Source of the DNA: Frankiaceae bacterium
GTDB lineage: Bacteria; Actinomycetota; Actinomycetes; JAFAQI01
Direction of reading: 5' to 3'
Length of the DNA stretch: 36,360 nucleotides
NCBI GenBank assembly: GCA_025929365.1
Contig: JAICMG010000012.1
Location: 1 to 36,360 of the forward strand
Shown here: positions 295 through 34,927 of the stretch, one piece after another
How the letters are laid out: every line of letters begins with the position of its first letter
How positions within the stretch are numbered: position 1 is the first letter of the stretch
Program-made: the position numbers and the translations under genes
Notes under the pieces: model-generated
Told to the model about the DNA's origin: nothing
What the model saw: the letters and a program-made list of their open reading frames with translations, nothing else
Databases searched by the model: none

Positions 295-534
295 GTGCCG
301 AACGGCCGCGTGCAGACGCGTTGGAACTACCTGATCGAGTCCGCCGGCAGCGGCGTACAGGTCACCGAGTCCTACGAGTTCCTGTGGTGTCCGGTCGTCG
401 CCCGCATCGTGGAGCTGCCGTTTCCTCGCGACACCCAACTCAGACGCGGCATGCAGCGGACGCTGGACGCGCTCATGGCCGCCGCGGAAGGTAGCGCGTC
501 CTTCACGAAACCGCGGACGGAATCTCGCGGCTGA
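295..534 (+). pseudogene. SRPBCC (polyketide cyclase-like) gene remnant, 5'-truncated
   Basis: The frame from about 295 to the TGA at 534 encodes roughly 79 residues resembling the C-terminal half of a SRPBCC/START-like protein: GRVQTRWNYLIESAG, then TRVTES-like VQVTESYEF, then QLRRGMQRTLDALMAAAEG, which is the usual C-terminal amphipathic helix. Family members are about 140-160 residues. The upstream codons in this frame carry no recognisable N-terminal half and instead overlap the start of the DUF488 gene on the other strand. This is best read as a decayed or rearranged copy. An intact SRPBCC gene lies 1.2 kb away in the sulfur operon. The 3' end overlaps the 3' end of the convergent ArsR-rhodanese gene by about 30 nt. 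A short expressed protein starting at GTG 295 cannot be excluded. Confidence 0.6.
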
Positions 535-1183
535 CCGGTAGCCGCGCGGCTTCCCACTCCGGGTAGCCGTCCTCCAGGCGCGCGGCGCGGATACCGCGCT
601 TGCGGAGGACACGGACAGCCTCGTCCGCATAGACGCAGTAAGGGCCGCGGCAGTACGCCACCACCTGTTTGCCCTCCGGCAGCTCGCGCAGTCGCTTGCC
701 CACCTCGGCGATCGGCACGGACAACGCCCCCGCGATGTGGCCCGCGTCGTACTCCGCGGACGGACGGACGTCGAGGACGACGACATCTCCCGACTTTAGC
801 CGCTTCGCCAACTGGTCGCGGTCGATGGTGTCGAGCTGGGTGCGATCGCCGAGATAAGCATGCGCGAGTCGCTCGAGCTCGGCGACGTGAGCCGCGGCAA
901 CGTCGCGCATCGCGGCCCACAGCTCGCTGACGCGCTTGCTCGACAGCGAGTAGTAGATGCGGTTGCCGTCTCGCCTGGTCACGACCAGCCCCGCGCGAAG
1001 CAGGTGCTGCAGGTGTTGCGAGGTGTTCGCGACGCTTTGCGCCAGCTCCCCCGCAATCTCCTCAACCGAGCGCTCGCCCTGCGCGAGGAGGTCAATGATC
1101 TCGGCGCGGCGCCCGCTGGCGACCGCGCGGCCCACGACGGCGAACCCGTCGTACAGCGCGTCCTTCGCTGCCCGGTCAGCCAT
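503..1183 (-). CDS. ArsR-family regulator fused to rhodanese domain
   Basis: A 226-residue fusion. Residues about 12-95 form an ArsR/SmtB winged helix (recognition region SVANTSQHLQHLLRAGLVVTRRDGNRIYYSL). Residues about 120-215 form a rhodanese domain (VVLDVRPSAEYDAGHI, active-site loop YCRGPYC, then DGYPEWEAARLPV). The only cysteines are C178 and C183 in the rhodanese loop. The DNA-binding part has none, unlike persulfide sensors of the SqrR/BigR type, which use two cysteines in the winged-helix domain. By inference, sulfane sulfur is sensed through the rhodanese cysteines. The ATG at 1183 has a GGAGGT ribosome site 5 nt upstream. The gene is divergent from the DsrE-SRPBCC-MBL-MFS operon and is its probable regulator, with an operator inside its own promoter. 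Confidence 0.93.
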   Translation of the reverse strand: MADRAAKDALYDGFAVVGRAVASGRRAEIIDLLAQGERSVEEIAGELAQSVANTSQHLQHLLRAGLVVTRRDGNRIYYSLSSKRVSELWAAMRDVAAAHVAELERLAHAYLGDRTQLDTIDRDQLAKRLKSGDVVVLDVRPSAEYDAGHIAGALSVPIAEVGKRLRELPEGKQVVAYCRGPYCVYADEAVRVLRKRGIRAARLEDGYPEWEAARLPVSREIPSAVS

Positions 1184-1710: not shown

Positions 1711-2181
1711 ATGAGCAAGACGACGTCGATCACAGCTGTCGTGCCCGCCGATCCGGACGAGGTGTTCAGCGCTGTGACTGACCCGGCGCGGCTTCCGGAG
1801 TGGAACGAGGCGATTCGCCGGGTCATCGAGTCGCCGACGCGTCTCGACCCGGGCGCGGAGTGGGTAGTCGAGATGAACGCCCTCGGTCGGAGCTGGCGCA
1901 GCCGATCGCGCGTGGCGGAGATCGACCGGGCAGCGCGGGTCTTTCGGTACCGTTCGTGCACGGACGACGGCAACCCGTCGTACGTGGACTGGACATGGTC
2001 GGTGACACCGGACGACATCGGCGGGTCACGTGTGACGATCACGGGTGCGCTGAACCCGAAGACCTTCTGGCGGAGGGCGCTGTTCGTGCACATCCGGCGC
2101 CGGCAGCTTACCGGCCACGAGCTCACGAGGTCGCTTCGCGCGCTCGCAGGCACGGCGAGGGCAGCCGCTGCACGTGGCTGA
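1711..2181 (+). CDS. SRPBCC family protein (START-like fold)
   Basis: A 156-residue protein with the SRPBCC pattern: an N-terminal strand TTSITAVVPADPDEVFSAVTDPARLPEWNEAI, central beta strands, and a C-terminal helix (LTGHELTRSLRALAGTARAA). The ATG at 1711 has AAGGAGAAG upstream. The fold is a hydrophobic ligand pocket used by polyketide cyclases, lipid-transfer proteins and stress proteins; the ligand here cannot be told from sequence. It sits between the DsrE-like gene and the MBL-rhodanese gene, and its stop overlaps the next start by 8 nt, so it is probably translated with that enzyme. A role in the sulfur pathway is inferred from position only. Confidence 0.85.
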   Translation: MSKTTSITAVVPADPDEVFSAVTDPARLPEWNEAIRRVIESPTRLDPGAEWVVEMNALGRSWRSRSRVAEIDRAARVFRYRSCTDDGNPSYVDWTWSVTPDDIGGSRVTITGALNPKTFWRRALFVHIRRRQLTGHELTRSLRALAGTARAAAARG

Positions 2182-3532
2182 CGAGCTCGTGCCCGCGGTG
2201 GTCGACGAGGGGCTGGGCAACACCAGCTACCTCGTCGACCTCGGCGACGGCCGTGCGCTCGTCATCGACCCGAGCCGCGATCTGCGTGCGGTGCACGCAG
2301 CGGCGGCGGCTACGGACCTGGCGATCGGCTTCGCGGCCGACACCCATCTGCACGCGGACTTTCTCACCGGCGCATGTCAGCTCGCCGCCGACGGCGATGC
2401 CACGATCCTGGCCTCGGCAACCGGCGGACGGCACTATCACCACCGCAGGCTGAGCGACGGCGACGAGGTCGACCTCGGTGGCCTGCGGCTGCGGACCCTC
2501 GCCACCCCCGGCCACACCGATGAGCACGTGGCATACGTGCTGCTCGACGGCGCCCGGCCGCTCGGCGTGTTCACCGGCGGCTCACTGATCGTCGGCTCCG
2601 CGTCGCGCACCGATCTGCTCGGCGCGGACCGGGCCGAGGAGCTCGCCCGGGCACAGTTCGCCTCGGTGCGCCGGCTGATGCAGCTGCCGGATGACGTGAT
2701 GGTCTGGCCGACCCACGGCGCGGGATCCTTCTGCGCCGCGCCGACGGGGGCGCAGCGGACCAGCACGATCGGGCGGGAGCGAGCCTCCAATCCGCTGCTG
2801 CAACTCGACGACGAAGCCGCCTTCGTCGCGACGCTGCTGGGCTCGCCGGGCAGCTATCCGCCGTACTTCGACCACCTCTCCGACATCAACCGGTCCGGCC
2901 CGTCGCCGATCGAACGGACACCGATGCTCGATCCACTGGACCCTGACGAAGTCGCCCGGCTCGCCGACGAGGGAACTCCGGTGGTCGACGTGCGGCCGAT
3001 CGAGGCCTACGCCGAGGCACACCTACCGGGTTCGGTGTCGATCGAGCTGCGCGACGCGTTCGCGACCTGGCTCGGCTGGCTGGTGCCGTTCGGCGCACGG
3101 CCGGTCATCGTCCGCGACCCGAGTCAGGACCCGGATGAGATCCGCTGGCAAGCCGCGAAGATCGGGTACACGCTGCGCGGTGAGCTGGCCGGTGGCGTCG
3201 CCGCGTGGGTCGCGTCCGGGCGCGCGGCAACGTCGACCGTCCTTGCCGCGCCCGGCGACGTCCCGGCATACCCAACGCTCGACATCCGACAGGCGTCGGA
3301 GTACGCCGGAGGGCACGTGGCCGCCGCGGTGCACATCGAGCTCGGCGACATCCCGTCACACCTCGACACACTGCCGCGCGCGACGTACGTCGTGATGTGC
3401 GGGCACGGCGAACGCGCGATGTCGGCCGCGAGCCTGATCGAACGAGCCGGGCGGCCGGCTCCCGTCGTACTGCTCGGCGGCCCCGAGGAGTGGGCCGCCG
3501 CTCACAGGGTCGCCCTCGCCACGGGGTCATGA
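2174..3532 (+). CDS. Metallo-beta-lactamase fold protein with two rhodanese domains (persulfide dioxygenase-like)
   Basis: A 452-residue protein starting at GTG 2174. Residues about 5-200 are an MBL domain of the ETHE1/Blh type: metal motif THLHADF (H58, H60, D62), TPGHTDEH (H114), and PTHG (H181). The usual TGD aspartate that helps hold the iron is replaced by glycine (FTGGSLIVG, G136). Residues about 270-345 form a rhodanese domain without the active cysteine (loop reads VIVRDPSQD). Residues about 355-445 form a second rhodanese domain with C409 in CGHGERA. The family oxidises glutathione or other low-molecular-weight persulfides to sulfite; here mycothiol persulfide would be a reasonable substrate, which is inference. 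Rhodanese 2 may feed or accept sulfur. The stop overlaps the MFS start as ATGA. Confidence 0.9.
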   Translation: MADELVPAVVDEGLGNTSYLVDLGDGRALVIDPSRDLRAVHAAAAATDLAIGFAADTHLHADFLTGACQLAADGDATILASATGGRHYHHRRLSDGDEVDLGGLRLRTLATPGHTDEHVAYVLLDGARPLGVFTGGSLIVGSASRTDLLGADRAEELARAQFASVRRLMQLPDDVMVWPTHGAGSFCAAPTGAQRTSTIGRERASNPLLQLDDEAAFVATLLGSPGSYPPYFDHLSDINRSGPSPIERTPMLDPLDPDEVARLADEGTPVVDVRPIEAYAEAHLPGSVSIELRDAFATWLGWLVPFGARPVIVRDPSQDPDEIRWQAAKIGYTLRGELAGGVAAWVASGRAATSTVLAAPGDVPAYPTLDIRQASEYAGGHVAAAVHIELGDIPSHLDTLPRATYVVMCGHGERAMSAASLIERAGRPAPVVLLGGPEEWAAAHRVALATGS

Positions 3533-4862: not shown

Positions 4863-5375
4863 GTGGCCGAGGTCTGCGCATGTTGCGAGGAGTCGGTCCA
4901 GTGGTGGGTCAGGCTGCGTTCACACCCCGACCTGCCGATCTGTCACAACTGCCTGGGCGGCCTCAACGCGCAACGCGACGGCCAGCTGCAGCTCGCATCG
5001 GGGCAGTGGATCGTTACCGGCTTCGAGCCGGTGTTCGCGGTGGCTGACGTGGAGCGGGCGGCCGCCTTCTACGAGCAGCTGGGATTCGAGACATCCCGGC
5101 ACGACGCGACGTACGCCTTCGCGCATCGCGATCGCGACCTCACGATCCATCTCGCGAAGACCGAGGGCGCTTCCCTGCCCGGCCACGGCGCGTTGTATCT
5201 GCACTGCCAGGACGCCGACCGGGTCGCCGAGGACTGGCGAAGCGCAGGCGTCACGGTTGCCGGACCCGAGGACCAGGACTACGGCAAGCGCGAGGGATCG
5301 GTCACCGACCCCGACGGAAACCTGATCCGGTTCGGTGCCCCGCTGCGCGCAACACCATCTGACGCCGGCGATTGA
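4863..5375 (+). CDS. VOC (glyoxalase/bleomycin-resistance) protein with N-terminal Cys4 motif
   Basis: A 170-residue protein from GTG 4863. Residues about 3-33 carry CACC and CHNC, about 20 residues apart, a zinc-ribbon-like arrangement. Residues about 50-160 form one VOC module: EPVFAVADVERAAAFYEQLGFE, then HLAKTEG, LYLHCQDADRVAEDWRSAGV, and GSVTDPDGNLIRFG. VOC proteins include glyoxalases, dioxygenases and antibiotic-binding proteins; single-module members act as dimers. The function here is not predictable. The upstream gap to the MFS gene is 29 nt and no strong ribosome site is visible, so the start is uncertain. It may be the tail of the sulfur operon or the first gene of the next cluster, since it ends within 33 nt of the MDR dehydrogenase start. 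Confidence 0.8.
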   Translation: MAEVCACCEESVQWWVRLRSHPDLPICHNCLGGLNAQRDGQLQLASGQWIVTGFEPVFAVADVERAAAFYEQLGFETSRHDATYAFAHRDRDLTIHLAKTEGASLPGHGALYLHCQDADRVAEDWRSAGVTVAGPEDQDYGKREGSVTDPDGNLIRFGAPLRATPSDAGD

Positions 5376-5407
5376 ACCAGCTCCGCCGAGTCCCCGTGGG
5401 AGCCAAT

Positions 5408-6385
5408 GTGACCGAGGCGCGCGCGTTCTGGGTGCGCGAGCCCGGTGCCGGCGAGATCCGTCCCGCTACGCTGCCCGCCGCCGGTCCCGATGACGTCGTC
5501 GTCCGGACGCTGCGCACCGCCGTGAGCCGCGGCACCGAGACCCTCGTCTTCGAGGGCCGGGTGCCGCCCAGCCAGTACGACCTGATGCGCGCGCCGTTCC
5601 AGGAGGGCGAGTTCCCCGGACCGGTGAAGTACGGCTACCTCAACGTCGGCGTCGTCGAGCACGGCCCGGCGCACCTGCAGGACCGCATCGTGTTCTGCCT
5701 CTACCCGCACCAGACCCGCTACGTCGTGCCTGCCGATGCCGTCATCGCCGTTCCACAGGAAGTGCCCGTTGAGCGCGCCGTTCTGGCCGGCACCGTCGAG
5801 ACCGCGCTCAACGCCTTGTGGGACGTCGCACCCGCCGCCGGCGACCGCATCGCGGTGATCGGTGCCGGAATGGTCGGCGCCTGCGTCGCCCGGCTCGTCG
5901 CGCTGACGCCCGGTGTCGAGGTGACGCTCGTGGACATCGATCCCGCGCGCGAGAAGACCGCGCTTGCGATGGGTGCGGCGTTCGCGACCCCGGAGCGCGC
6001 GCCCGTCGACTGCCACACGATCGTGCACACCAGCGCGACGTCGGAGGGCCTGCAGCGCGCCCTCGAGCTGCTCGCGCCCGACGGCACCGTCGTGGAGATG
6101 AGCTGGTACGGCGACCGGCAGGTGACGCTGCCATTGGGCGAGGCGTTCCACTCCAAGCGCCTCACGATCCGCGCCAGCCAGGTCGGTGCGGTCACGCGGT
6201 CGAAGCGTGACCGTTACACAACGAGCGAGCGCCGCGCGATCGCCCTCGACGTGCTGCGCGACCCGGCATACGACGTCCTGCTCACGGGGACGTCGTCGTT
6301 CCAGCAGCTGCCCGAGGTCATGGCCCGCCTCACCGACGGCACACTCCGGGCGCTGTGCCACAGCATCAGCTACGACGACGAGTGA
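5408..6385 (+). CDS. MDR-family dehydrogenase lacking the zinc motif
   Basis: From GTG 5408 (GGGAGCC upstream) this is 325 residues; a TTG at 5372 overlapping the previous stop is a possible longer start. It has the medium-chain dehydrogenase layout: a GroES-like N-terminal half, then a Rossmann fold with [16 protein letters not shown] and an acidic VTLVDIDP at the end of strand 2, which favours NAD(H). The catalytic zinc cysteine and structural zinc loop of alcohol dehydrogenases are absent; the corresponding segment reads [13 protein letters not shown], similar to BchC-type and other non-zinc members. It heads a tight series with PTPS-like, glycosyltransferase, RibD-type and RibA-type genes, so it probably oxidises or reduces an intermediate of that pathway (inference). 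Confidence 0.85.
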
Positions 6386-6395
6386 GGGTGAGGAA

Positions 6396-6794
6396 GTGTT
6401 CAGCGTGACGGTGCGCGACCACATGATGGTCGCCCACAGCTTCCAGGGCGAGGTGTTCGGTCCCGCGCAGCGACTGCACGGCGCAACGTACGTCGTGGAC
6501 GCGACCTTTCGCCGCGAGTCACTCGACAGCGACAACCTGGTCGTCGACATCGGTCGCGCGAGTGCGGTGCTGCACGAGGTCCTCGGCGAGCTGACCTACC
6601 GCAACCTCGACGACGAGCCGTTGCTCGCCGGCCAGAACACCTCCACCGAGAGGCTCGCCCAGTACGTCGCCGACAAGCTGGCCGACCGCATCCACGGAGG
6701 TGATCTCGGCGAGCCGGCCCGCGAGCTCGCCGGGATCACCGTCACGCTGCATGAGTCGCACATCGCATGGGCGAGCTACGAACGGCCGCTGTGA
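6396..6794 (+). CDS. PTPS/QueD-fold protein with lost catalytic residues
   Basis: A 132-residue protein related to 6-pyruvoyl-tetrahydropterin synthase / 6-carboxytetrahydropterin synthase. Fold landmarks remain: VAHSF with H14, [14 protein letters not shown] with H28, [23 protein letters not shown], and [12 protein letters not shown] with the pterin-anchoring Glu. The third zinc His of the canonical HGH is Ala30, the catalytic Cys four residues before HGH is Ala24, and the catalytic Asp-His of the LDH motif reads Thr67-Tyr68. The C-D-H triad is therefore gone, so it is unlikely to make pyruvoyl- or carboxy-tetrahydropterin. GTG 6396 fits the family N-terminus; GTG 6405 is better spaced from GAGGA. 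The stop overlaps the glycosyltransferase start (GTGA). The pathway is a GTP-derived branch by context. Confidence 0.82.
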
Positions 6795-7861
6795 GGACCG
6801 TGCACTTCGTCGTGCCGGCAGACATCGACGACCCTGCGCGACCGAGCGGCGGCAACGTCTACGACCGCAAGGTCATCGACCGCCTGACGACGTGCGGATG
6901 GGACATCCACGAACACGCGATTGCGGGAAGCTGGCCGCGTCCCGACGAGGCGGCCGAGCGCGAGCTCGCCCGGACGCTCACTCGGATCCCGGACGACTCG
7001 GTCGTCGTCATCGACGGCTTGATCGCCGCCACCGCGGCAACCTGCATGGTGCCTGCCACCGCACGGCTACGAGTCGTCGTGCTCATGCACCTCCCGCTCG
7101 GTCACCAACCGCCTGGGCACGAGGTGCCACTCGCGCGTGAACGCGAGCACGCCGTTCTCGCGGCAGTTTCGGCGACCATCGCGACCAGCGAGTGGACCCG
7201 CCACCTTCTGTCGACCACGTACGCCGACCTCGATCCCCGCCGTATCCATGTCGCAGCACCAGGCGTCGAGCCTGCCGCCGAGGCAGTCGGTAGCCACGAC
7301 GGCGGCCGGCTGCTGTGCGTCGCCGCGATCACACGGCACAAGGGGCCCGACCTGCTACTCGACGCGCTGTCGACGCTCACCGACCTGCCGTGGCACTGCA
7401 CGTGCGTCGGCGTGCTGGACCGGGAGCCGGACTTCGCCGCCGAGCTGCGGTATCGAGCCGAGCACGACGGGCTCGCGGAGCGGATCACCTTCACCGGGCC
7501 CATCGTCGGCGCCGACCTCGACCGGCACTACGCGGCAGCCGACCTCCTCGTGCTGCCCTCGCGGGGCGAGACCTACGGCATGGTGCTCACCGAGGCGCTC
7601 GCCCACGGCGTACCGGTCGTCGCGAGCACGGTCGGCGGCGTCCCCGACACGATCGGCCACGTCGACGGCGGCCGCCGACCCGGGCTCCTGGTCCCGCCGG
7701 ACGACGCCCCCGCCCTCGCGGCAGCGATCGGCCGCTGGCTGACCGACGAGGAGCTGCGCGCCGCCCTCCGCGGGACCGCCGCGCTGCGCCGCGCGACGCT
7801 GCACTCGTGGTCGTCGACCGCTGATCGCGTGGCCGACGTGATCTCCGCCGTCGCGGCGTGA
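6791..7861 (+). CDS. Glycosyltransferase family 4 (GT-B)
   Basis: A 356-residue protein from GTG 6791, which overlaps the PTPS-like stop by 4 nt. The N-terminal half has a [10 protein letters not shown] segment like other GT4 acceptor domains. The C-terminal half has the donor-site signature [20 protein letters not shown] and the E-x7-E block [23 protein letters not shown], then GLLVPPDD. It is expected to be a cytoplasmic retaining transferase using a nucleotide sugar. The acceptor cannot be predicted; within this gene set a pyrimidine or pterin polyol intermediate is the obvious candidate (inference). The stop overlaps a possible GTG start of the RibD-type gene. Confidence 0.9.
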
Positions 7862-7926
7862 ACCGGTTCGCGCCGCGGATCGTGACATTGGGCATGGACC
7901 GCTGCGGCTCGCCGAAGGGGCCGCGC

Positions 7927-8643
7927 ATGGCTGAGCGTCCCTACACCGTGCTCAGCTGCGGGATGTCGATCGACGGCTACATCGACAGCCCCGCGATCGA
8001 CCGGCTGCCGCTGTCCAACGACGCCGACTTCGACCGCGTCGACGGTGTGCGTGCGGACTGCGACGCGATCATGGTCGGCGCCGCCACGGTACGCAATGAC
8101 AACCCTCGCCTCCTTGTGCGCTCCCCTCAGCGCCGCCGGCAACGGCAAGCCCTCGGTCTGCCCGTCTCGCCGGTCAAGGTGACGGTCACCAACACGGGTC
8201 GACTCGACCCGTGCGCACCGTTCTTCACGGTGGGGGGGGTGGACAAGCTGGTCTACTGCGCGACCGCCGTGGTGGCCGCCACCCGCGAACGACTCAGCGA
8301 TGTCGCCACCGTGATCGACGCCGGCGCAGCCGTCTCGATGCGCTGGATCGCCGAGGATCTCCATCGGCGCGGCATCACCACGCTGCTCGTCGAAGGCGGC
8401 GGAAGCGTGCACACGCAGTTCCTCACCGCCGACCTCGCCGACGAGCTACAACTCGTCGTCGCCCCCTTGTTCGTGGGCGACCCGCAGGCACATCGGTTCG
8501 TCAACGAAGGCACGTTCCCCTGGCAGCCCGGGCGGCGCGCCCACCTCGCCGAAGTGCGCCAGATCGGCGACGTCGTCCTCCTTCGCTACGCCCTGTCCGC
8601 ACGGTCGGCCTACGCCGAGGGTGCGCTGCGGGAAGCCCGATGA
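7927..8643 (+). CDS. RibD C-terminal-type pyrimidine reductase (stand-alone)
   Basis: A 238-residue stand-alone RibD_C/DHFR-like domain: RPYTVLSCGMSIDGYI, CDAIMVGAATVRNDNPRLLV (NADPH site), and TTLLVEGGGSVHTQFL. There is no deaminase domain. In riboflavin synthesis this domain reduces the ribosyl chain to ribityl using NADPH; archaeal and fungal enzymes act before deamination, on the direct GTP cyclohydrolase II product. ATG 7927 follows GAAGGGG and fits the domain edge; GTG 7858, overlapping the glycosyltransferase stop, would add 23 residues. It overlaps the next gene (ATGA), the RibA-type cyclohydrolase, so the two probably act in series. A run of eight G at 8232-8239 lies inside the gene. 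Confidence 0.9.
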   Translation: MAERPYTVLSCGMSIDGYIDSPAIDRLPLSNDADFDRVDGVRADCDAIMVGAATVRNDNPRLLVRSPQRRRQRQALGLPVSPVKVTVTNTGRLDPCAPFFTVGGVDKLVYCATAVVAATRERLSDVATVIDAGAAVSMRWIAEDLHRRGITTLLVEGGGSVHTQFLTADLADELQLVVAPLFVGDPQAHRFVNEGTFPWQPGRRAHLAEVRQIGDVVLLRYALSARSAYAEGALREAR

Positions 8644-9311
8644 TGGTGCCGCTTCCACCTGCGGCGATCCGCACGCAGGTCCCGCTCCCGTTGCGGTTCC
8701 CTGACGGCTTCGTCGCTCCCAGCCGGGTCATCACCTTCCACGGTCTCGTCGACGGCCGCGAGCATCTTGCGCTCGGCCTGGGCGCCTGGGCCGCACCGCA
8801 GCCCCGCCTCCGGGTTGCCGCCGTACCGCTGGTCCGCCCGCACAGCGAGTGCCTGACCGGCGATGTGTTCGGCAGCCAGCGCTGCGACTGCGGCGCGCAG
8901 CTTCGCGAGGCGGTCGAGCGCCTCACTGCCGTCGGCGGATACCTCCTCTATCTGCGTCAGGAAGGACGAGGCATCGGCCTTTACGCCAAGGTCGACGCCT
9001 ACGAGCTGCAAGACGCCGGGCTCGACACCTACGAAGCCAACCTCGCGCTAGGTCGCGCCGAGGACGAGCGCGACTACACGGTCGCGGCGCAGATGCTGCA
9101 TGCCCTGGGCGTCCAGCACATCCGGTTGCTCAGCAACAACCCGGACAAGGCGGCGCAGCTGGAGCGACTGGGGATCAGCATCGTCGGGCAGGACCCTACG
9201 GCGGTGCACCTGTCGACGGACAACGTGCGCTACCTTGCCGCCAAGGCAGGACGTGGTGCGCACACGATTGACGCAGCCGCGATCGGCCAGCCCTCTCCCG
9301 GCAACGGATGA
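8640..9311 (+). CDS. ribA: GTP cyclohydrolase II
   Basis: A 223-residue single-domain enzyme, without the fused DHBP synthase (RibB) common in actinobacterial rib operons. The zinc site is SECLTGDVFGSQRCDCG with C71, C82 and C84. The GTP site is LYLRQEGRGIGL. Tyr121 (in AYELQ) and Arg144 (in DERDYT) match the catalytic Tyr and Arg of E. coli RibA, so normal GCH II chemistry is expected: GTP to the 2,5-diamino-6-ribosylamino-pyrimidinone 5'-phosphate plus formate and pyrophosphate. ATG 8640 overlaps the RibD-type stop; ATG 8643 is also in frame. No other riboflavin genes are nearby, so this is probably a pathway-dedicated paralogue. S. coelicolor is known to hold several GCH II homologues. Confidence 0.95.
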   Translation: MMVPLPPAAIRTQVPLPLRFPDGFVAPSRVITFHGLVDGREHLALGLGAWAAPQPRLRVAAVPLVRPHSECLTGDVFGSQRCDCGAQLREAVERLTAVGGYLLYLRQEGRGIGLYAKVDAYELQDAGLDTYEANLALGRAEDERDYTVAAQMLHALGVQHIRLLSNNPDKAAQLERLGISIVGQDPTAVHLSTDNVRYLAAKAGRGAHTIDAAAIGQPSPGNG

Positions 9312-9318
9312 CCTGCGA

Positions 9319-10086
9319 TCAGCCGGCGATCTTCTCCGTCACCACCGCAAACTTCCGGACCCGCCCACTTCCCAGCCACTCGACCCACAGCACATGCGCG
9401 GCGACCAGATCGTCGTAGGCCCGCCGGCCGATCACCGGAACGATGACGCTCGCGTGTGACCGGAACGCACAGGTCATGGCGTCGGCGATGGCGCGGTGCG
9501 CCGACCCGCACTCGATCTGCCATCGCACCTGCAGGCCGGAGGCGTGCAGGCAGTCCAACATCTGCGGCAACGGCGTGAGCCAGACCGTGGCGGCATCAGG
9601 CATCCACTCGCGCTCGGCCGCGGTCAGCGGTTCGCCGACGGCGATCGTGAAGGCGAACCGCCCTCCGACCGCCAGTGCAGAGGCGATCTCGCGCACGAGC
9701 GCCGCCTGGTCCCGGAAGGCGAGCATCGTCTCCAGCAACAGCACGACGTCGTGGCTTCCGCGCGGTACCGGCGGCACGTCGCGCACCTCGAAGCGGCAGG
9801 GCAGCCCGGCAGCGCGCTCCCGGGCAAGCGCGATGGCCGCAGCGCTTCGATCCACGCCCAGGTACGTGCAGCCGAGCTCTCGGGTGATGAGTCGCCCCGG
9901 CCCGGCGACGCCGCAGCACAGATCGAGAACCGCGACGCCCGGCCCTACCCCGGCCCGCATCGCGACCGCGAGGATCTCGCTGGCGCACATGAAGCTCTCC
10001 TGGTCGACGAACTCACCGGGCGGGTACGCCTCGCACCGGGCGCGCAGCAGGGCGGCGTCGAATGGCGCCCGGTCGTCCTGTTCCAT
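9319..10086 (-). CDS. SAM-dependent methyltransferase
   Basis: A 255-residue class I methyltransferase. Motif I is VAVLDLCCGVAGPGRLITREL, followed by the acidic TYLGVDRSAAAI, RFEVRDVPPVPRGSHDVVLLLE, and LAVGGRFAFTIAVG. ATG 10086 overlaps the stop of the upstream CDP-alcohol phosphotransferase gene (ATGA), so the two form one transcript reading left. It converges on the GTP cyclohydrolase II gene with only 7 nt between stop codons. The substrate is unknown. Its coupling to a membrane enzyme and its position in the pterin-like locus suggest it methylates the pathway product. Confidence 0.85.
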   Translation of the reverse strand: MEQDDRAPFDAALLRARCEAYPPGEFVDQESFMCASEILAVAMRAGVGPGVAVLDLCCGVAGPGRLITRELGCTYLGVDRSAAAIALARERAAGLPCRFEVRDVPPVPRGSHDVVLLLETMLAFRDQAALVREIASALAVGGRFAFTIAVGEPLTAAEREWMPDAATVWLTPLPQMLDCLHASGLQVRWQIECGSAHRAIADAMTCAFRSHASVIVPVIGRRAYDDLVAAHVLWVEWLGSGRVRKFAVVTEKIAG

Positions 10087-12506
10087 CAGCCGGGCGGCGC
10101 CTGCGCACTGATGGTCCGGGCCGGCGGCGGCGGTGTCCCGTACGCGTCGAGGAAGCGGTTGCGGAAGGCGCTCATCGGCCAGACCGGCGCATGCCGGCCC
10201 GGGAGCAATCCGGGATCCCACCGCCACGGGTCGAGCGCGGCGATGACTTGCGGGTCGTGGGCGATGACCATCACGGGAACGTCGTGATTGGCGGCGTCGC
10301 CGCTGACCACCGTGGCCGGCTGGTGGTCGCCGAGGGCGATGACCACGAGCTTGTCGTCGTGCGCTCGCTGGATGAACGAGGTCAGCGCCGCCATGGAGTA
10401 CTGGATCGACTGGCCGTAGGCAGCCTGCACACTGCTGGCGCTTCGCCACACGACGTCCGGGCCGGGACGCTCGGCCGCCATCGGTGCGTAGATCGTGCCG
10501 TCTCCAAGGGCGCGCCACGGGACCATGCTCGGCAATGGCGCCCACGGCGTGTGACTGGAATCGAGGTCGATCTCGGCCATGACCGGCTTGTGGTGCGGGC
10601 GGGCCAGCTCGCGTTGGTAGAAGGCTTGCAACGTGTACTGGTCGGGGATCTTCGCGTAGCTGAAGTGCGGTCCCCGGTAGCCGACGTCGTTGATCCCGTA
10701 CATCTTGTCGAAGTGGTAGAAACCCTGGCCCTGATGCCAGGGACGCGGACTCGACGGGATGTCGACGACCGTCCGCCAGCCGGCCCGCTTGAACGCCGTG
10801 AAGAGGTTGAACCGGCTGCTGGCGGTGAGCTGGCTGTACCGCTGCTGGTTGTCGACCCACATCCCTGACTCCAGGGTCGAGTGCGCCAGCCAGCTGATCC
10901 CGCCGAAGGTCGGCGAGCGCAAGAACGCCGACCGCGCGGAGAACCCCGCCGCCTGGAGCGAGGACGTGTCCTGCCGCACCGCCGCGTCCACCGCGCCCGA
11001 GAAGGGCGTGTCCTGGACGGCGACCTGCCCATAGCTCTCGACGAAGACGATCAGCACGTCCTTGCCGCGCAGCCGGCTGAGCAGCTGCGAGGTCGGCTGC
11101 GCGGCGTACGGGTCGTACCTCGCGAGCTGCTGGTTGAACACACGCCGGTCGAGCAGCCCACTGTGCACCAGCTCGGCCTCGTCCACCGTGAGCCGTGCCG
11201 CGGACGTCGAGTCCACCGGGAGTCCGCTGCCGGTCCGGAGACCGAGCGCGAAGCAGCTGACCCAGACCGCGCTGAGCCCGGCGAGCACTCGCAGCGTCGG
11301 GGCGCGATGGCGAGCCGCGAGCCGCGTCACCCGGACGGTGGCGGCAGTGACTGCGATCACGACGACCGGGACGGCGGCGATCGCCAGGATCTCGGTCGCC
11401 CGCGCCGTGGTTCGCCCCACCGAGTCACGGAAGACGCTGAGCGCCGCCTGGAAGCTGGGCCAGTCCGTCACCGGGTTGAACGGGCGGTCGAGCACCTCAT
11501 AGAAGCCGATGTTCACCACACGCGCCACCGCGAGCACGCCGAGCAGGACACCGACGATCACCGCCCACGCGGTTCGAAGTCGCGGCGGCAGCACGAGCGC
11601 CAGCGCGACCACCGCCACGCCCTCGAGCGGGACTCGCAGGAACGTGGCAACGGTGAGCTGGCTCTGCCGATCGGGCCCGACCAGCGCCACCCAGAACAGC
11701 GCGACCGCCACCACGGTGAGCACCACCACCAGGACCCCGCGCAGCCGGCGGTCCGCGGCCGACGCCACAAACTCGCGACGCCGAGCGAAGAGCCAGACCA
11801 CGTCGCGTCCGAAGGACTCGGTGAGCAACAGGAGTGCGACGCCGGCCGCAACGAGCACCACGCTGCGAGGAACGGCGCCCGCGATGGCGACAGTGAGCAC
11901 GACGCCCTGTACGGCGCAAACCACCTTCCGCCAGTACCGGTGCGGTACGGGGGCGCGAAGCCACGGCCACACCAGGCCCGCGAACCAGACCACGTAGCGC
12001 ATCAGGCCGATCGCGAGTACCCACCAGGCCAGTGACCGCGCCACCTGCACACTGAGCGCGAGTATCAGGAACGCGTCGACTTCTCCGTCGAACCGTGCCC
12101 CCACCGCCGTCACCGAGCGGGTGCGGCGCGCCACCCAGCCGTCGCAGCCATCCAACGCGAGCGCGATCGCGGCGAGAGTCACGATCGTGGCAGTCGCGGC
12201 CGGTCGCTGGATCGCCGCCGCAACCAGCGCCGCGACACCTGCGACCACGGTGCTTCGGGTCAAGGTGACGGCGTTGGCGGGCCCGAGGCTCAGCGCTGCA
12301 GAAGCCGAGAGCGCTCGCGAAACGAGTGCGCCGACGACGACGGCGTACGCGAGGCCGACGGCCCATCCCGCAGCGGTGAGTCCCGCAGTGGCCGCGAGCA
12401 GGGAGAACAGCACGTTGGCGGCGACGATGCTCGCTACGGCACCGACCCATAACCGTCGAGCTGGCCGCACACTCCAGGACACGCGGCGCTCGCGCCACCG
12501 GTTCAT
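10086..12506 (-). CDS. CDP-alcohol phosphotransferase fused to LtaS/sulfatase-like domain
   Basis: An 806-residue membrane enzyme. Residues about 75-230 form a CDP-alcohol phosphotransferase with a perfect D-G-x2-A-R-x8-G-x3-D-x3-D motif (D122 to D144). Several further membrane segments follow (about 240-420). Residues about 480-790 form an alkaline phosphatase/sulfatase-like domain of the LtaS type: metal Glu in IVFVESYG, a Ser/Thr-rich nucleophile region FGGISWLAHSTLESG, DSSHTPWAP, and IALGDHQP with the Asp-His metal pair. The two halves suggest making a phospho-alcohol lipid and then transferring or cleaving a phospho-group on the outer membrane face (inference). ATG 12506 is chosen because 12551 would overlap the divergent methyltransferase. 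Confidence 0.85.
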   Translation of the reverse strand: MNRWRERRVSWSVRPARRLWVGAVASIVAANVLFSLLAATAGLTAAGWAVGLAYAVVVGALVSRALSASAALSLGPANAVTLTRSTVVAGVAALVAAAIQRPAATATIVTLAAIALALDGCDGWVARRTRSVTAVGARFDGEVDAFLILALSVQVARSLAWWVLAIGLMRYVVWFAGLVWPWLRAPVPHRYWRKVVCAVQGVVLTVAIAGAVPRSVVLVAAGVALLLLTESFGRDVVWLFARRREFVASAADRRLRGVLVVVLTVVAVALFWVALVGPDRQSQLTVATFLRVPLEGVAVVALALVLPPRLRTAWAVIVGVLLGVLAVARVVNIGFYEVLDRPFNPVTDWPSFQAALSVFRDSVGRTTARATEILAIAAVPVVVIAVTAATVRVTRLAARHRAPTLRVLAGLSAVWVSCFALGLRTGSGLPVDSTSAARLTVDEAELVHSGLLDRRVFNQQLARYDPYAAQPTSQLLSRLRGKDVLIVFVESYGQVAVQDTPFSGAVDAAVRQDTSSLQAAGFSARSAFLRSPTFGGISWLAHSTLESGMWVDNQQRYSQLTASSRFNLFTAFKRAGWRTVVDIPSSPRPWHQGQGFYHFDKMYGINDVGYRGPHFSYAKIPDQYTLQAFYQRELARPHHKPVMAEIDLDSSHTPWAPLPSMVPWRALGDGTIYAPMAAERPGPDVVWRSASSVQAAYGQSIQYSMAALTSFIQRAHDDKLVVIALGDHQPATVVSGDAANHDVPVMVIAHDPQVIAALDPWRWDPGLLPGRHAPVWPMSAFRNRFLDAYGTPPPPARTISAQAPPG

Positions 12507-12529: not shown

Positions 12530-13228
12530 GTGGTACTCGGTGTGCAGGCATCGAGCCAGGCGGAGCAGACGCGGGAGCGCCTGATCGAGACCTACCGGCA
12601 CAAAGCGAGGCGCTATGACCTCACCGCCCGGCTCTCCCCTGTGCCCGGCTACCCGCAGCACCGGCTGCGACTGCGCGCAGTACGCGCGCTGAACCTGCGT
12701 CCGGGCGACTTCGTCGTCGACGTGGCATGTGGCACCGGTCTCAACTTCCCGCTGATCCAGCGGGCGATCGGGCCGGACGGCCGGATCGTCGGCGTGGACA
12801 TGACCGACGCGATGCTCGCAAGGGCGCAGGAACGAATCGAGAGCAGCGGCTGGCGCAACGTCAGCCTCGTGCTGTCCGACGCCGCGGAGTTCGAGTTTCC
12901 GACCGGCGCCGACGCGATCGTGTCCACGTACGCGCTCACGCAGGTACCCGACTCGGCCGCGGTCATTCGCCACGGCGCCGCGGCGCTGTCCGAGGGCGGC
13001 CGGTGCGTCGTGCTGGATCTCAAAATCCCGGGCACCGCGCCGCGATGGCTGACGCAGCTCGGTGCCGCCGCCATCCGGCCGTTCGCCGGCATCGACGAGT
13101 GGATGGCACGCCGCCCATGGGAGACGATCCGCGCGGCGATGCGCCAAGACCTCACCGAGGTGTCGTGGAGCGAGCCGTGCCTCGGCACCGCGTTCCTCGG
13201 CGTCGGCTCACGCGGCCGAACGCGCTAG
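12530..13228 (+). CDS. SAM-dependent methyltransferase (UbiE-like)
   Basis: A 232-residue class I methyltransferase. An N-terminal TYRHKARRYDLTARL segment resembles UbiE/COQ5-type enzymes. Motif I is FVVDVACGTGLNFPLI, then IVGVDMTDAMLARAQERI, SLVLSDAAEFEFP, and the post-motif LSEGGRCVVLDLKIPG. GTG 12530 has GGCGGGA just upstream; GTG 12542 is an alternative. It is divergent from the phosphotransferase gene, with only 23 nt between the two start codons. The next gene, a UPF0104 membrane protein, starts 24 nt after its stop. The substrate is unknown; lipid-linked or quinone-like substrates are usual for this type. Confidence 0.85.
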   Translation: MVLGVQASSQAEQTRERLIETYRHKARRYDLTARLSPVPGYPQHRLRLRAVRALNLRPGDFVVDVACGTGLNFPLIQRAIGPDGRIVGVDMTDAMLARAQERIESSGWRNVSLVLSDAAEFEFPTGADAIVSTYALTQVPDSAAVIRHGAAALSEGGRCVVLDLKIPGTAPRWLTQLGAAAIRPFAGIDEWMARRPWETIRAAMRQDLTEVSWSEPCLGTAFLGVGSRGRTR

Positions 13229-13252: not shown

Positions 13253-14218
13253 GTGAGACGCCTACGCCGGTGGGGCGGCCCGGTGGTTGCGGTCGTGGTG
13301 CTCGCCGCCGTGATCTGGCGTGTGGGCACCGGCCCGTTCGTCGACGGGGTCGAGGCCGTCGACGCCCGTGCTCTGCTGGCGGCGTCAGCGATCGTGTGCG
13401 TCACGACGCTGTGTTGCGCCTGGCGGTGGACGATCGTCGCGCGTGGCCTGGGCCTGCGGCTCCCGCTGCCGACGGCAGTGGCTGCTTACTACCGCACGCT
13501 GTTTCTCAACCTCACCTTGCCGAGCGGCATCGCCGGTGACGTCTATCGCGCCGTCGGTCACGGTCGCGCGTCGCGCGACATGAGCCGCGCCGTCCGGGCC
13601 GTGGTGTGGGAGCGCACCGCCGGGCAGGTGGTGCAGGCGGTGCTGACCGTCGGCGTCCTTCTCGTGTTGCCCTCACCGGTGCGCTCGTCGATGCCGTTCC
13701 TCGCACTGGCCGTTGTCGGCGCCACCGTCGCAGTAGTCCTGGCGAGCCGGGTATACAGCGGCGATCCGAGTTCCCGGTGGAGGCGATGGCGGGCCACCGT
13801 GACGGCCGACCTCCGAGACGGCGTACTGCGCCGTGGCGCCCTCCCTGCGGTCGTCGTCACCTCCGCCGTCATCGTCGTCGGCCAGGCGTTCGTGTTCGTG
13901 ATCGCGGCGCGGACGGTGGGTGCGACCGCGCCGCCGTCACGGCTGATGCCGCTCGCGATGCTCGCGCTGCTCGCGATGGTCCTGCCGAGCATCGCGGGTT
14001 GGGGGCCGCGTGAGGCCCTGACCGCGGTGGCGTTCTCCGCGGCCGGCCTCGGTGCGGCGCGCGGTGCCGCCGCCGCGGTCACGTACGGCGTGCTCGTGCT
14101 CGCCGCCTGCTCCCCCGGCGCGGTCGTGCTGCTCCTCGACTGGCTTCCCGGGCACTCGTCGTGGAAGATGTCACGGCCCGCAAGCAAGCAGCGAGGGAAG
14201 GTCGTCGTCCGCACATGA
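13253..14218 (+). CDS. LPG-synthase transmembrane-type (UPF0104/YbhN) protein
   Basis: A 321-residue integral membrane protein with about 8 hydrophobic segments. It shows the family's hallmark early block CCAWRWTIVARGLGL and the LFLNLTLPSGIAGDVYRAV segment, and later WGPREALTAVAFSAAGL. This is the flippase/transmembrane part related to the N-terminal half of MprF, without the aminoacyl-transferase domain. Members move or modify lipid-linked compounds. GTG 13253 is the likely start. The stop overlaps ATG of the quinone oxidoreductase gene. With the CDP-alcohol phosphotransferase next door it suggests that the product of this locus is handled at the membrane (inference). Confidence 0.85.
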   Translation: MRRLRRWGGPVVAVVVLAAVIWRVGTGPFVDGVEAVDARALLAASAIVCVTTLCCAWRWTIVARGLGLRLPLPTAVAAYYRTLFLNLTLPSGIAGDVYRAVGHGRASRDMSRAVRAVVWERTAGQVVQAVLTVGVLLVLPSPVRSSMPFLALAVVGATVAVVLASRVYSGDPSSRWRRWRATVTADLRDGVLRRGALPAVVVTSAVIVVGQAFVFVIAARTVGATAPPSRLMPLAMLALLAMVLPSIAGWGPREALTAVAFSAAGLGAARGAAAAVTYGVLVLAACSPGAVVLLLDWLPGHSSWKMSRPASKQRGKVVVRT

Positions 14219-32443: not shown

Positions 32444-34927
32444 TCACTCCGTGGGCTGCGGTTGGTCGTCCACGCCGGCGTCGCAGGCCATTGCCATCGC
32501 CTCGGCGGTCGTCATCGTTCGGCCCGCGTTCGAGGCCGCTTCGTACGTCGCTGGAGCGAGCTGGTCGCGGGTGAGCGCTACTGCGTCGTCGTGCACCACG
32601 GCGAACCACCCCGGGTAGACCCAGCCGGCCTGCTCGTGCAGCGCCGCAGCGGCGCCCAGCACCCGGGCCGCAACCTCTCCGCGACCAGCGCGCGCAGCGA
32701 CTCGCGCGGTGCGCACCAGCACCATCTCGACGGCGCCGAGATCCCCGCTCGCGTCTGCGCTGCCGTGGGCTCGCCGCAACATGGCAATCGCGTCCCCGTG
32801 CCGTCCCTCGCCGCTGACGGCGTCCGCGAGAACGGAAAGTGAGTACCACTCATTCTCGAGATCGCCGATGGCGCCGGCCCTGGCAACGATCTCCTCGTGC
32901 AGCCGGCGGAAGGTGCCGGGGTCGCCGAGCTCGCTCGCCGCCCACGCCAGGATCCGCAGCGATTGCAGCTCCCGGTGCTCGTCGCCGAGCGCCCGCCATT
33001 GCTCCGCGAGGTTCTCCATGATGGCCTTCGCATCGGCGAACTCACCGCAGTGACCGTGGGCCAGCCCGAGCTCGTGCTCGGCGAAGGCCATCCGCCATGG
33101 ATCGGGGAAGGGTTGCTGCGCCGCGACGGCGCGCTGCGCCCGCTCGAGGAAGACGTGCGGCGCCGCACCGGCACCCGGCGCCAGGTGCGAAGCGCCGAGC
33201 GCGACCTTCGCGCGCGCATCGCCGGGCTCGCCGTCCACCCTCAGCAGCTGCTCGAGCCGAAGCGATCCCTCGACGTGATGGCCGCGCAAGCACCAGAACT
33301 CCCACAGCGCGCCCCCCAAGCGCATCGCGTCGTCGGTGTCACCGCCACCTTCCAACCGGTCGAGGGCGACCCGGAGGTTGTCGTGATCGGCCTCGAGCCG
33401 GTCCAACGCCACCACCGGATGCAGGCCGAGCACGTCGGGTTCGAGCGACTCCGCGAGGGCGAGGAAGTACGCGGCGTGGGCCCGTTGGTAGGTCTCGGCG
33501 TCGCCCGACGCCGCGAGCCGCTCCGAGGCGAAGTCGCGAATGGTCTCGAGCATCGTGAACCGGCCGTCGACCACGCGGACGAGGCTCTTGTCGACCAGCG
33601 CCTCGAGCACGTCGAGGTCGGCGTCGATGACCTCGGCCGCGTCCTGCAGCGTGACCCCTCCCGCGAACACCGCCATCCGCTCGAACAGCACGCGTTCCGG
33701 CTCGTCGAGCAGGTCGTAGGACCACGCGATGGTGGCGCGCAGCGTCTGCTGCCGCGCGTCGGCGTCGCGCCCGCCCTTCAACAAGTCGAGCCGCTGACCG
33801 AGACGACTGAGGATCTGCGCCGGCGGCAGCACGCGGGCTCGCGCCGCGGCCAGCTCGATCGCCAGCGGGAGGTCGTCGAGCGCGCGGCACAGCGCCGCGA
33901 CCTCGTCGCCGGCCGCGAGCCCGGAGCGGGCGCAGAACAGCTGCACGGCGTCCGCGTTCGCCAGCGGTGGGACGGCGTACTCGGCCTCGCCGCGCACCCG
34001 CAGTCGCTCTCGCGACGTGACCAGGACGGCGAGACTGGGGCAGCGTTCGACGAGCCGTGCAATGTCTCTGGCGGCGCCGATGACCTGCTCCAGGTTGTCG
34101 ATCGCGAGCAACATGTCGCGTTCGCCGATGTGCGTCTCGAGGTCGCCGGAGCCACCGATCGCCTGCCCGATGGTGGGCAGGACGAGGTCCGGCGATCGCA
34201 GCGCGGCAAGCTCGATCCAGAACACCCCCGCCTTGCGTGATCCGACGAACTCCGCAGCCGCTTCCAGCGCCAACCGCGTCTTGCCGGATCCGCCGGGTCC
34301 GGTCAGCGTGACGAGCCGGTCGCCGCCACGCAGCAGCCGCACGACGTCTTCGAGCTCCCGCTGACGACCGACGAACTGGCTGGTCGGCCGAGGGAGGTTC
34401 GTGTTGGCCACGGTGCGAAGCGGCGGGAACCGGCCGTCGCCGAGCTGGTAGATCGAGATCGGCTGGTCGAAGTCCTTGAGCCGGTGCTCACCCAGCTCGA
34501 CCACCGCCGCCTCGATGGACGCTCGCGTCCGCTCGGAGAGCAACACCTGGCCGCCGTGGCCCGCGGCGCACAGCCGCGCCCCAAGGTGCACGTCGGCACC
34601 GACGTAACCCTCATCGGTGAGCTGCGGCTCACCGGTGTGCAATCCCATCCGCACCCGGATCCGGCCGGAGCTCAACGCTTCCTGCGCCGCTGCTGCCGCC
34701 GCCACCGCGTCCTCCGCGGTCGGGAATGCGACGAAGAACGCGTCACCCTGGGTGTCGACCTCGACGCCGCTGTGCGCGGTGACCGCCGCCCTGATGTGGC
34801 TGCGGTGCTCGGCGAGCTGGTCGGCGTAGCCCTGTTGTCCGAGCTCGTGCAACAGCGCGGTCGACCCCTCGATGTCGGTGAACATCAGTGTCACCGTCCC
34901 GGCGGGCAGCTCCGGTCGCATGTCCAT
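32444..34927 (-). CDS. Class III cyclase-STAND ATPase-TPR signalling protein
   Basis: An 827-residue protein. Residues about 8-165 are a class III nucleotide cyclase domain with both metal aspartates, D18 (FTDIEGST) and D62 (TQGDAFF). The substrate-specifying Lys before GD is Asp58, and the catalytic Asn of the VNxAAR block is His (DVHLGARL), so activity is uncertain. Residues about 185-440 are an NB-ARC/STAND ATPase: Walker A LTGPGGSGKTRLALEA, Walker B MLLAIDNLEQV, LVTSRERL and DLPLAIELAAARA. Residues about 480-800 are TPR-like helices. No LuxR HTH is present. ATG 34927 or ATG 34921 is the start. The ligand and output are unknown. Confidence 0.9.
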   Translation of the reverse strand: MDMRPELPAGTVTLMFTDIEGSTALLHELGQQGYADQLAEHRSHIRAAVTAHSGVEVDTQGDAFFVAFPTAEDAVAAAAAAQEALSSGRIRVRMGLHTGEPQLTDEGYVGADVHLGARLCAAGHGGQVLLSERTRASIEAAVVELGEHRLKDFDQPISIYQLGDGRFPPLRTVANTNLPRPTSQFVGRQRELEDVVRLLRGGDRLVTLTGPGGSGKTRLALEAAAEFVGSRKAGVFWIELAALRSPDLVLPTIGQAIGGSGDLETHIGERDMLLAIDNLEQVIGAARDIARLVERCPSLAVLVTSRERLRVRGEAEYAVPPLANADAVQLFCARSGLAAGDEVAALCRALDDLPLAIELAAARARVLPPAQILSRLGQRLDLLKGGRDADARQQTLRATIAWSYDLLDEPERVLFERMAVFAGGVTLQDAAEVIDADLDVLEALVDKSLVRVVDGRFTMLETIRDFASERLAASGDAETYQRAHAAYFLALAESLEPDVLGLHPVVALDRLEADHDNLRVALDRLEGGGDTDDAMRLGGALWEFWCLRGHHVEGSLRLEQLLRVDGEPGDARAKVALGASHLAPGAGAAPHVFLERAQRAVAAQQPFPDPWRMAFAEHELGLAHGHCGEFADAKAIMENLAEQWRALGDEHRELQSLRILAWAASELGDPGTFRRLHEEIVARAGAIGDLENEWYSLSVLADAVSGEGRHGDAIAMLRRAHGSADASGDLGAVEMVLVRTARVAARAGRGEVAARVLGAAAALHEQAGWVYPGWFAVVHDDAVALTRDQLAPATYEAASNAGRTMTTAEAMAMACDAGVDDQPQPTE

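Follow-up and report, generated by a model that had tools for sequence, protein, structure and literature searches.

The window, a 36,360-nt stretch of a Frankiaceae genome, carries on its minus strand a gene that encodes a CDP-alcohol phosphotransferase and a domain resembling LtaS in one polypeptide. The frame translates without a stop into 806 residues starting with MNRWRERR; an upstream ATG at position 12551 is also in frame, and the frame is open up to there. The original prediction had placed both domains on one polypeptide at 10086-12506, which we confirmed, adding the strand that it had left unstated. The gene is divided as follows:

10086..12506, minus strand: CDP-alcohol phosphotransferase/LtaS-like transferase fusion, 806 amino acids, with in-frame homologues in 32 other loci
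11757..12506, minus strand: N-terminal part, residues 1-250, CDP-alcohol phosphotransferase with eight membrane helices (PF01066, motif, model helices)
11241..11756, minus strand: about five predicted membrane helices, approximately residues 254-421, leading to the ectodomain (model and hydropathy)
10086..11102, minus strand: predicted LtaS-like extracytoplasmic catalytic domain, approximately residues 469-806 (profile, fold match, and invariant E490, S538, W590, H652, D727 and H728)

Judged by its sequence, the N-terminal half is of the CDP-alcohol phosphotransferase kind, and a CDP-dependent activity is predicted for it. PF01066 matched residues 77-223 (E=1.1e-11, 45.8 bits against a cut-off of 22), and the CDP-alcohol motif is complete as D119-x2-D122-G123-x2-A126-R127-x8-G136-x3-D140-x3-D144, with all eight named residues invariant in 89 of 89 aligned sequences. 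The motif had been described earlier as perfect and spanning D122 to D144; it is indeed complete, but it starts at D119. This eight-residue motif and a six-helix core are common to the known CDP-alcohol phosphotransferases (PgsA, PssA, archaetidylinositol phosphate synthase), from which the window protein differs by two additional N-terminal helices and by the C-terminal half fused to it. The N-terminal half scored under every specific NCBIfam model, the best being archaetidylinositol phosphate synthase at 21.9 bits against 180.

Searched alone, the C-terminal half has no match in Pfam; the PF00884 Sulfatase model, which recognises 22 of 32 relatives (E<=0.01), does not recognise the window protein. 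A family profile of this half found a sole PDB chain, Listeria LtaP (4uop, E=1e-4). An AlphaFold2 model, which the original prediction had suggested building, was computed from 83 sequences (pLDDT 92.7, pTM 0.80) and predicts an LtaP/LtaS-type fold: in Foldseek its best PDB folds were LtaP, LtaS and MCR-1, with 4uop, 4uor and 4uoo at the top and the first MCR-1 at rank 8 (E=6e-7). Six residues, E490, S538, W590, H652, D727 and H728, are invariant in all 88 sequences of the C-half alignment, and by this alignment E490, D727 and H728 are assigned as metal ligands and H652 as the phosphate-binding His. Together with the LtaP match, the invariant ligands bear out the earlier claim of an LtaS/sulfatase-like domain with kept metal residues.

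The putative active site nevertheless departs from that of LtaS in its nucleophile. Glu263, Asp481 and His482 bind the metal of L. monocytogenes LtaS, in which Thr307 acts as the nucleophile (PMC4192460). This catalytic Thr, an LtaS hallmark, is missing from the C-terminal half, where Ser538 is invariant instead, and we therefore describe the protein as LtaS-like and do not file it as a true LtaS. Ser538 is most likely the nucleophile, as suggested by conservation and by the secondary structure of the model rather than by superposition on LtaS: it never varies and begins a helix, whereas the nearby T533 is replaced by Val, Ala or Ile in 8 of the 88 sequences. Furthermore, counterparts of the LtaS phosphate-binding residues His353 and Arg362 (L. 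monocytogenes numbering) were not recognised in the C-terminal half; with Ser in place of the LtaS Thr, this makes glycerol phosphate an unlikely substrate. The likeness to LtaS and LtaP covers the fold and profile, the Glu/Asp/His metal ligands and the active-site His, and may extend to the approximately five membrane helices predicted before an external domain; the differences are Ser538, the unrecognised phosphate-pocket His and Arg, and the fusion to a CDP-alcohol phosphotransferase. The phosphoethanolamine transferases MCR-1 and EptA have the fold in common with this half and too draw a phospho-headgroup from a phospholipid, but they rank lower in the fold search, their nucleophile is Thr and their acceptor is lipid A.

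An invariant Ser, not Thr, at the likely nucleophile position of an alkaline-phosphatase-superfamily fold would also suit a hydrolase (phosphodiesterase, phosphatase or sulfatase) acting in the same pathway to trim or recycle what the N-terminal half makes, and the matches of the relatives to the general Sulfatase model point the same way. We consider this unlikely, because the nearest folds and the sole profile match are transferases (LtaP, LtaS and MCR-1 all transfer phospho-headgroups) and because five helices followed by an ectodomain is the architecture of LtaS. The earlier proposal that one half builds a phospho-alcohol and the other transfers or hydrolyses one fits the enzyme kinds and their complete sites, with transfer the likelier of the two activities for the C-terminal half.

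According to the model and hydropathy, the CDP-alcohol part would contain eight membrane helices; about five more, of which four are clear and one is short (294-305), would come next, and then the ectodomain. If the N-terminus is cytosolic, for which we used a positive-inside argument judged by eye from the hydropathy output, the DxxDG site would face the cytosol and the ectodomain would project from the other side of the membrane. The predicted topology thus suggests that the CDP-alcohol site is cytosolic and the LtaS-like domain external. LtaS itself carries its external domain behind five helices, and its substrate is phosphatidylglycerol (PMC3089822).

The assembly from which the window comes is a draft of 246 contigs, so that a sequencing or assembly artefact, or a pseudogene, had to be weighed. 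Such an origin is extremely improbable, since the gene is a single open frame with invariant active sites and a scan of GTDB contigs followed by frame analysis recovered in-frame fusions in 32 loci outside the window's genome. They occur in relatives from its own family, order and class, and the isolates that carry them include Geodermatophilus, Blastococcus, Kribbella, Nocardioides, Actinophytocola and Actinomycetospora. The original prediction had named a frameshift or assembly join, and absence from all relatives, as findings that would speak against the fusion; we found instead an open frame of 806 residues and fused genes elsewhere. It had also proposed searching other species for separate adjacent genes, and these exist: both halves are separate genes in 53 loci, mostly neighbours; in 47 of the 53 they share a strand, and in 32 they follow domain order with no more than about 300 bases between them. 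A frameshift in a draft genome may account for some of the split cases. On the tree of the LtaS half, the fused and split states require eight changes, and 32 of 33 fused rows fall into one supported group of 46 alongside 14 split rows, Actinomycetospora being the sole fused row outside it. Both the number of changes and this placement indicate that fusion or fission occurred more than once.

The two halves are partners at the level of whole genomes as well. In a class-wide sample of 148 genomes, the LtaS half was present in 17 and the CDP half in 20, and all 17 were among the 20 (hypergeometric 1e-19, uncorrected for kinship, with 7 of the 17 from one genus); three genomes had the CDP half without the LtaS half. 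In streptomycete-like genomes, the two genes may sit megabases apart yet still co-occur.

The genes around the fusion form a conserved cluster. We counted neighbours in 58 loci that had been located by means of the fusion and span 20 kb or more, and the members in the window are:

5372..6385, plus strand: zinc-type alcohol dehydrogenase-like protein, cluster member in 51 of the 58 long loci
6399..6794, plus strand: PTPS-fold protein of PTPS-IV type (PF01242, E=4e-22), in 49 of 58
6767..7861, plus strand: GT4 glycosyltransferase, in 53 of 58
7858..8643, plus strand: RibD C-terminal-type reductase, deaminase domain absent, in 46 of 58
8640..9311, plus strand: GTP cyclohydrolase II paralogue (PF00925, E=3e-54), zinc cysteines and YLRQEGRG kept, in 43 of 58
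9319..10107, minus strand: SAM methyltransferase immediately 3' of the fusion, with which it shares 22 bases; a neighbour of the fusion in closer relatives as well
12530..13228, plus strand: UbiE-type methyltransferase divergent to the fusion, beside it in near relatives only
13253..14218, plus strand: flippase-like/LPG-synthase transmembrane protein (PF03706), in 52 of 58

The GT4 and the flippase-like PF03706 protein are therefore the most constant neighbours. On an Agrobacterium plasmid the set is complete, each half being encoded by a gene of its own. Most of the cluster, again with split halves, is also present on a contig labelled Candidatus Marinimicrobia (locus L054). No cytidylyltransferase was found among the window genes scanned, which favours CDP-diacylglycerol as the donor.

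The GTP cyclohydrolase II (RibA) and RibD of the cluster are paralogues of the riboflavin enzymes, since the genome of the window has its canonical riboflavin locus (RibBA, RibD, RibH) at another site, on contig C118. The cluster RibD is closest to the archaeal diaminopyrimidine reductase model TIGR01508, below its cut-off. The PTPS of the window, as well as 72 of 74 cluster PTPS, contains FGPAQ, which is the PTPS-IV signature (PMC5445326); in nearly all members the zinc motif HGH is changed to HGA and the position of the usual catalytic Cys is not Cys. A connection of PTPS-IV with PF00925 and PF01872 had been published from an AGeNNT analysis of genome neighbourhoods (PMC5445326), and the window cluster, which has the same signature and neighbours, adds the phosphatidyltransferase/LtaS-like pair. 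The main text of PMC5445326 mentions neither a phosphatidyltransferase nor a sulfatase, and that of PMC5041015, which refers to unpublished evidence for an F420 role of PTPS-IV, mentions no phosphatidyltransferase.

A creatininase-family gene was present in 12 of 15 loci whose RibA is without YLRQEGRG and in none of 37 with it, counts that are uncorrected for kinship (loci noted for creatininase: L054, L056, L064, L069, L071, L076, L081-L083, L087-L089 and L096). Relatives in this family include the deformylases ArfB and BrbF, and also MftE, and the protein may deformylate the RibA product in those loci. A loss of the Tyr of LxYxRxEGRG from the cluster RibA in the creatininase loci was considered and rejected, as the Tyr is kept in all.

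The pair also occurs apart from the pyrimidine genes. In 11 genomes the fusion or pair locus is without the dehydrogenase and PTPS; six of these hold both genes side by side elsewhere, and in the other five (two Kribbella, two Blastococcus and G. ruber) no close relatives of either were found, the halves being fused in four and apart in one. Roseobacter plasmids carry the CDP-alcohol/LtaS-like pair (L113, 15053-18418; L116, 13992-17282) with a GT4 and an adjoining NMT1/THI5-type ABC importer, and the Dinoroseobacter locus additionally holds the flippase-like protein; RibA, RibD and PTPS are absent from the plasmid stretches read. The five genomes and these plasmids indicate that the pair can stand apart from the pyrimidine genes, in which case it may use an imported or a different headgroup. 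The NMT1/THI5 family includes binders of pyrimidine precursors, and the roseobacter importer might supply a headgroup precursor; no NMT1-type binding protein was found in the actinobacterial loci. Separately, a cytochrome b561 gene adjoins the cluster in three alphaproteobacterial plasmids (L113, 10980-11537; L114, 5790-6323; L116, 10778-11314).

This separability bears on how the cluster is read as a whole. One alternative is that the pair, the GT4 and the flippase-like protein make an ordinary surface glycolipid bearing glycerol, inositol or polyol phosphate, and that RibA, RibD and PTPS-IV make a separate soluble pyrimidine or pterin and merely share the locus. The Kribbella, Blastococcus and Geodermatophilus ruber genomes, in which the pair stands without close dehydrogenase or PTPS relatives, would fit this, as would the roseobacter plasmids that keep the pair with only a GT4 (and, in Dinoroseobacter, the flippase-like protein). 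However, the full set recurs in Actinomycetota, on the Agrobacterium plasmid and, for the most part, on the contig labelled Marinimicrobia, six of the 11 genomes retain the two missing genes elsewhere, and the roseobacter loci have in their place an importer of a family with pyrimidine-precursor binders. We accordingly consider this alternative rather unlikely.

The fusion joins enzyme kinds that act in sequence in known pathways, so that the cross-phylum cluster is predicted to make a phospholipid-borne group and to move it outside the cell. By analogy with these pathways, we put at about even the chance that the N-terminal half uses CDP-diacylglycerol and an alcohol to make a phospholipid, whose phospho-headgroup the external half then moves to an acceptor. 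At the cytosolic face, the N-terminal half would join the alcohol to the phosphatidyl group of CDP-diacylglycerol, giving a phospholipid whose headgroup would be unusual. This lipid would then be moved across the membrane, a step in which the flippase-like protein of the cluster may take part, and the external LtaS-like domain would take the phospho-headgroup onto Ser538, with the metal held by E490, D727 and H728. The phospho-headgroup would finally pass to an acceptor, e.g. a glycolipid or a glycan started by the clustered GT4. PgsA makes phosphatidylglycerol. The proposed logic is the same as that of PgsA and LtaS, one of which makes the phospholipid donor while the other uses its phospho-headgroup (for LtaS, PMC3089822); PgsA and LtaS are separate enzymes, whereas here the two activities would reside in a single chain or in co-conserved neighbours.

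Within this proposed two-step scheme, the GTP cyclohydrolase II, RibD-type reductase, PTPS-IV and dehydrogenase of the cluster probably make the headgroup alcohol, although this is not certain. More specifically, and only tentatively, the cluster may make a phospholipid or surface phosphodiester of a new class, with a GTP-derived ribityl-diaminopyrimidine or pterin headgroup, which the CDP-alcohol half would attach and the LtaS-like half would transfer outside. That such a GTP-derived headgroup would be built by the paralogues of riboflavin enzymes is a similarly tentative suggestion. A ribityl phosphate had been raised in the original prediction as a partner of the fusion, and this is plausible; the link to RibA- and RibD-type genes on which it drew is conserved across phyla, but the pair is separable from them and five genomes are without dehydrogenase and PTPS relatives. 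If true, the ribityl reading would mean a new lipid headgroup chemistry, and the fusion offers a concrete test for the role of PTPS-IV and of the extra GTP cyclohydrolase II and RibD paralogues of actinobacteria.

In the literature searched, with most subscription journals outside its scope, no description of the fusion was found. The fusion was already present in deposited genomes, and PTPS-IV with cyclohydrolase and RibD neighbours has been published (PMC5445326); the combination of the two enzyme kinds appears new, and with it come an altered putative nucleophile and an uncharacterised conserved pathway.

Elsewhere in the window, a regulator of the ArsR type with a fused rhodanese domain (503-1183, minus strand) lies near a metallo-beta-lactamase/rhodanese protein (2174-3532, plus strand), and both genes are probably sulfur-related. 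An 827-amino-acid protein with a guanylate-cyclase domain, a STAND-type NTPase and TPR repeats is encoded at 32444-34927 on the minus strand.
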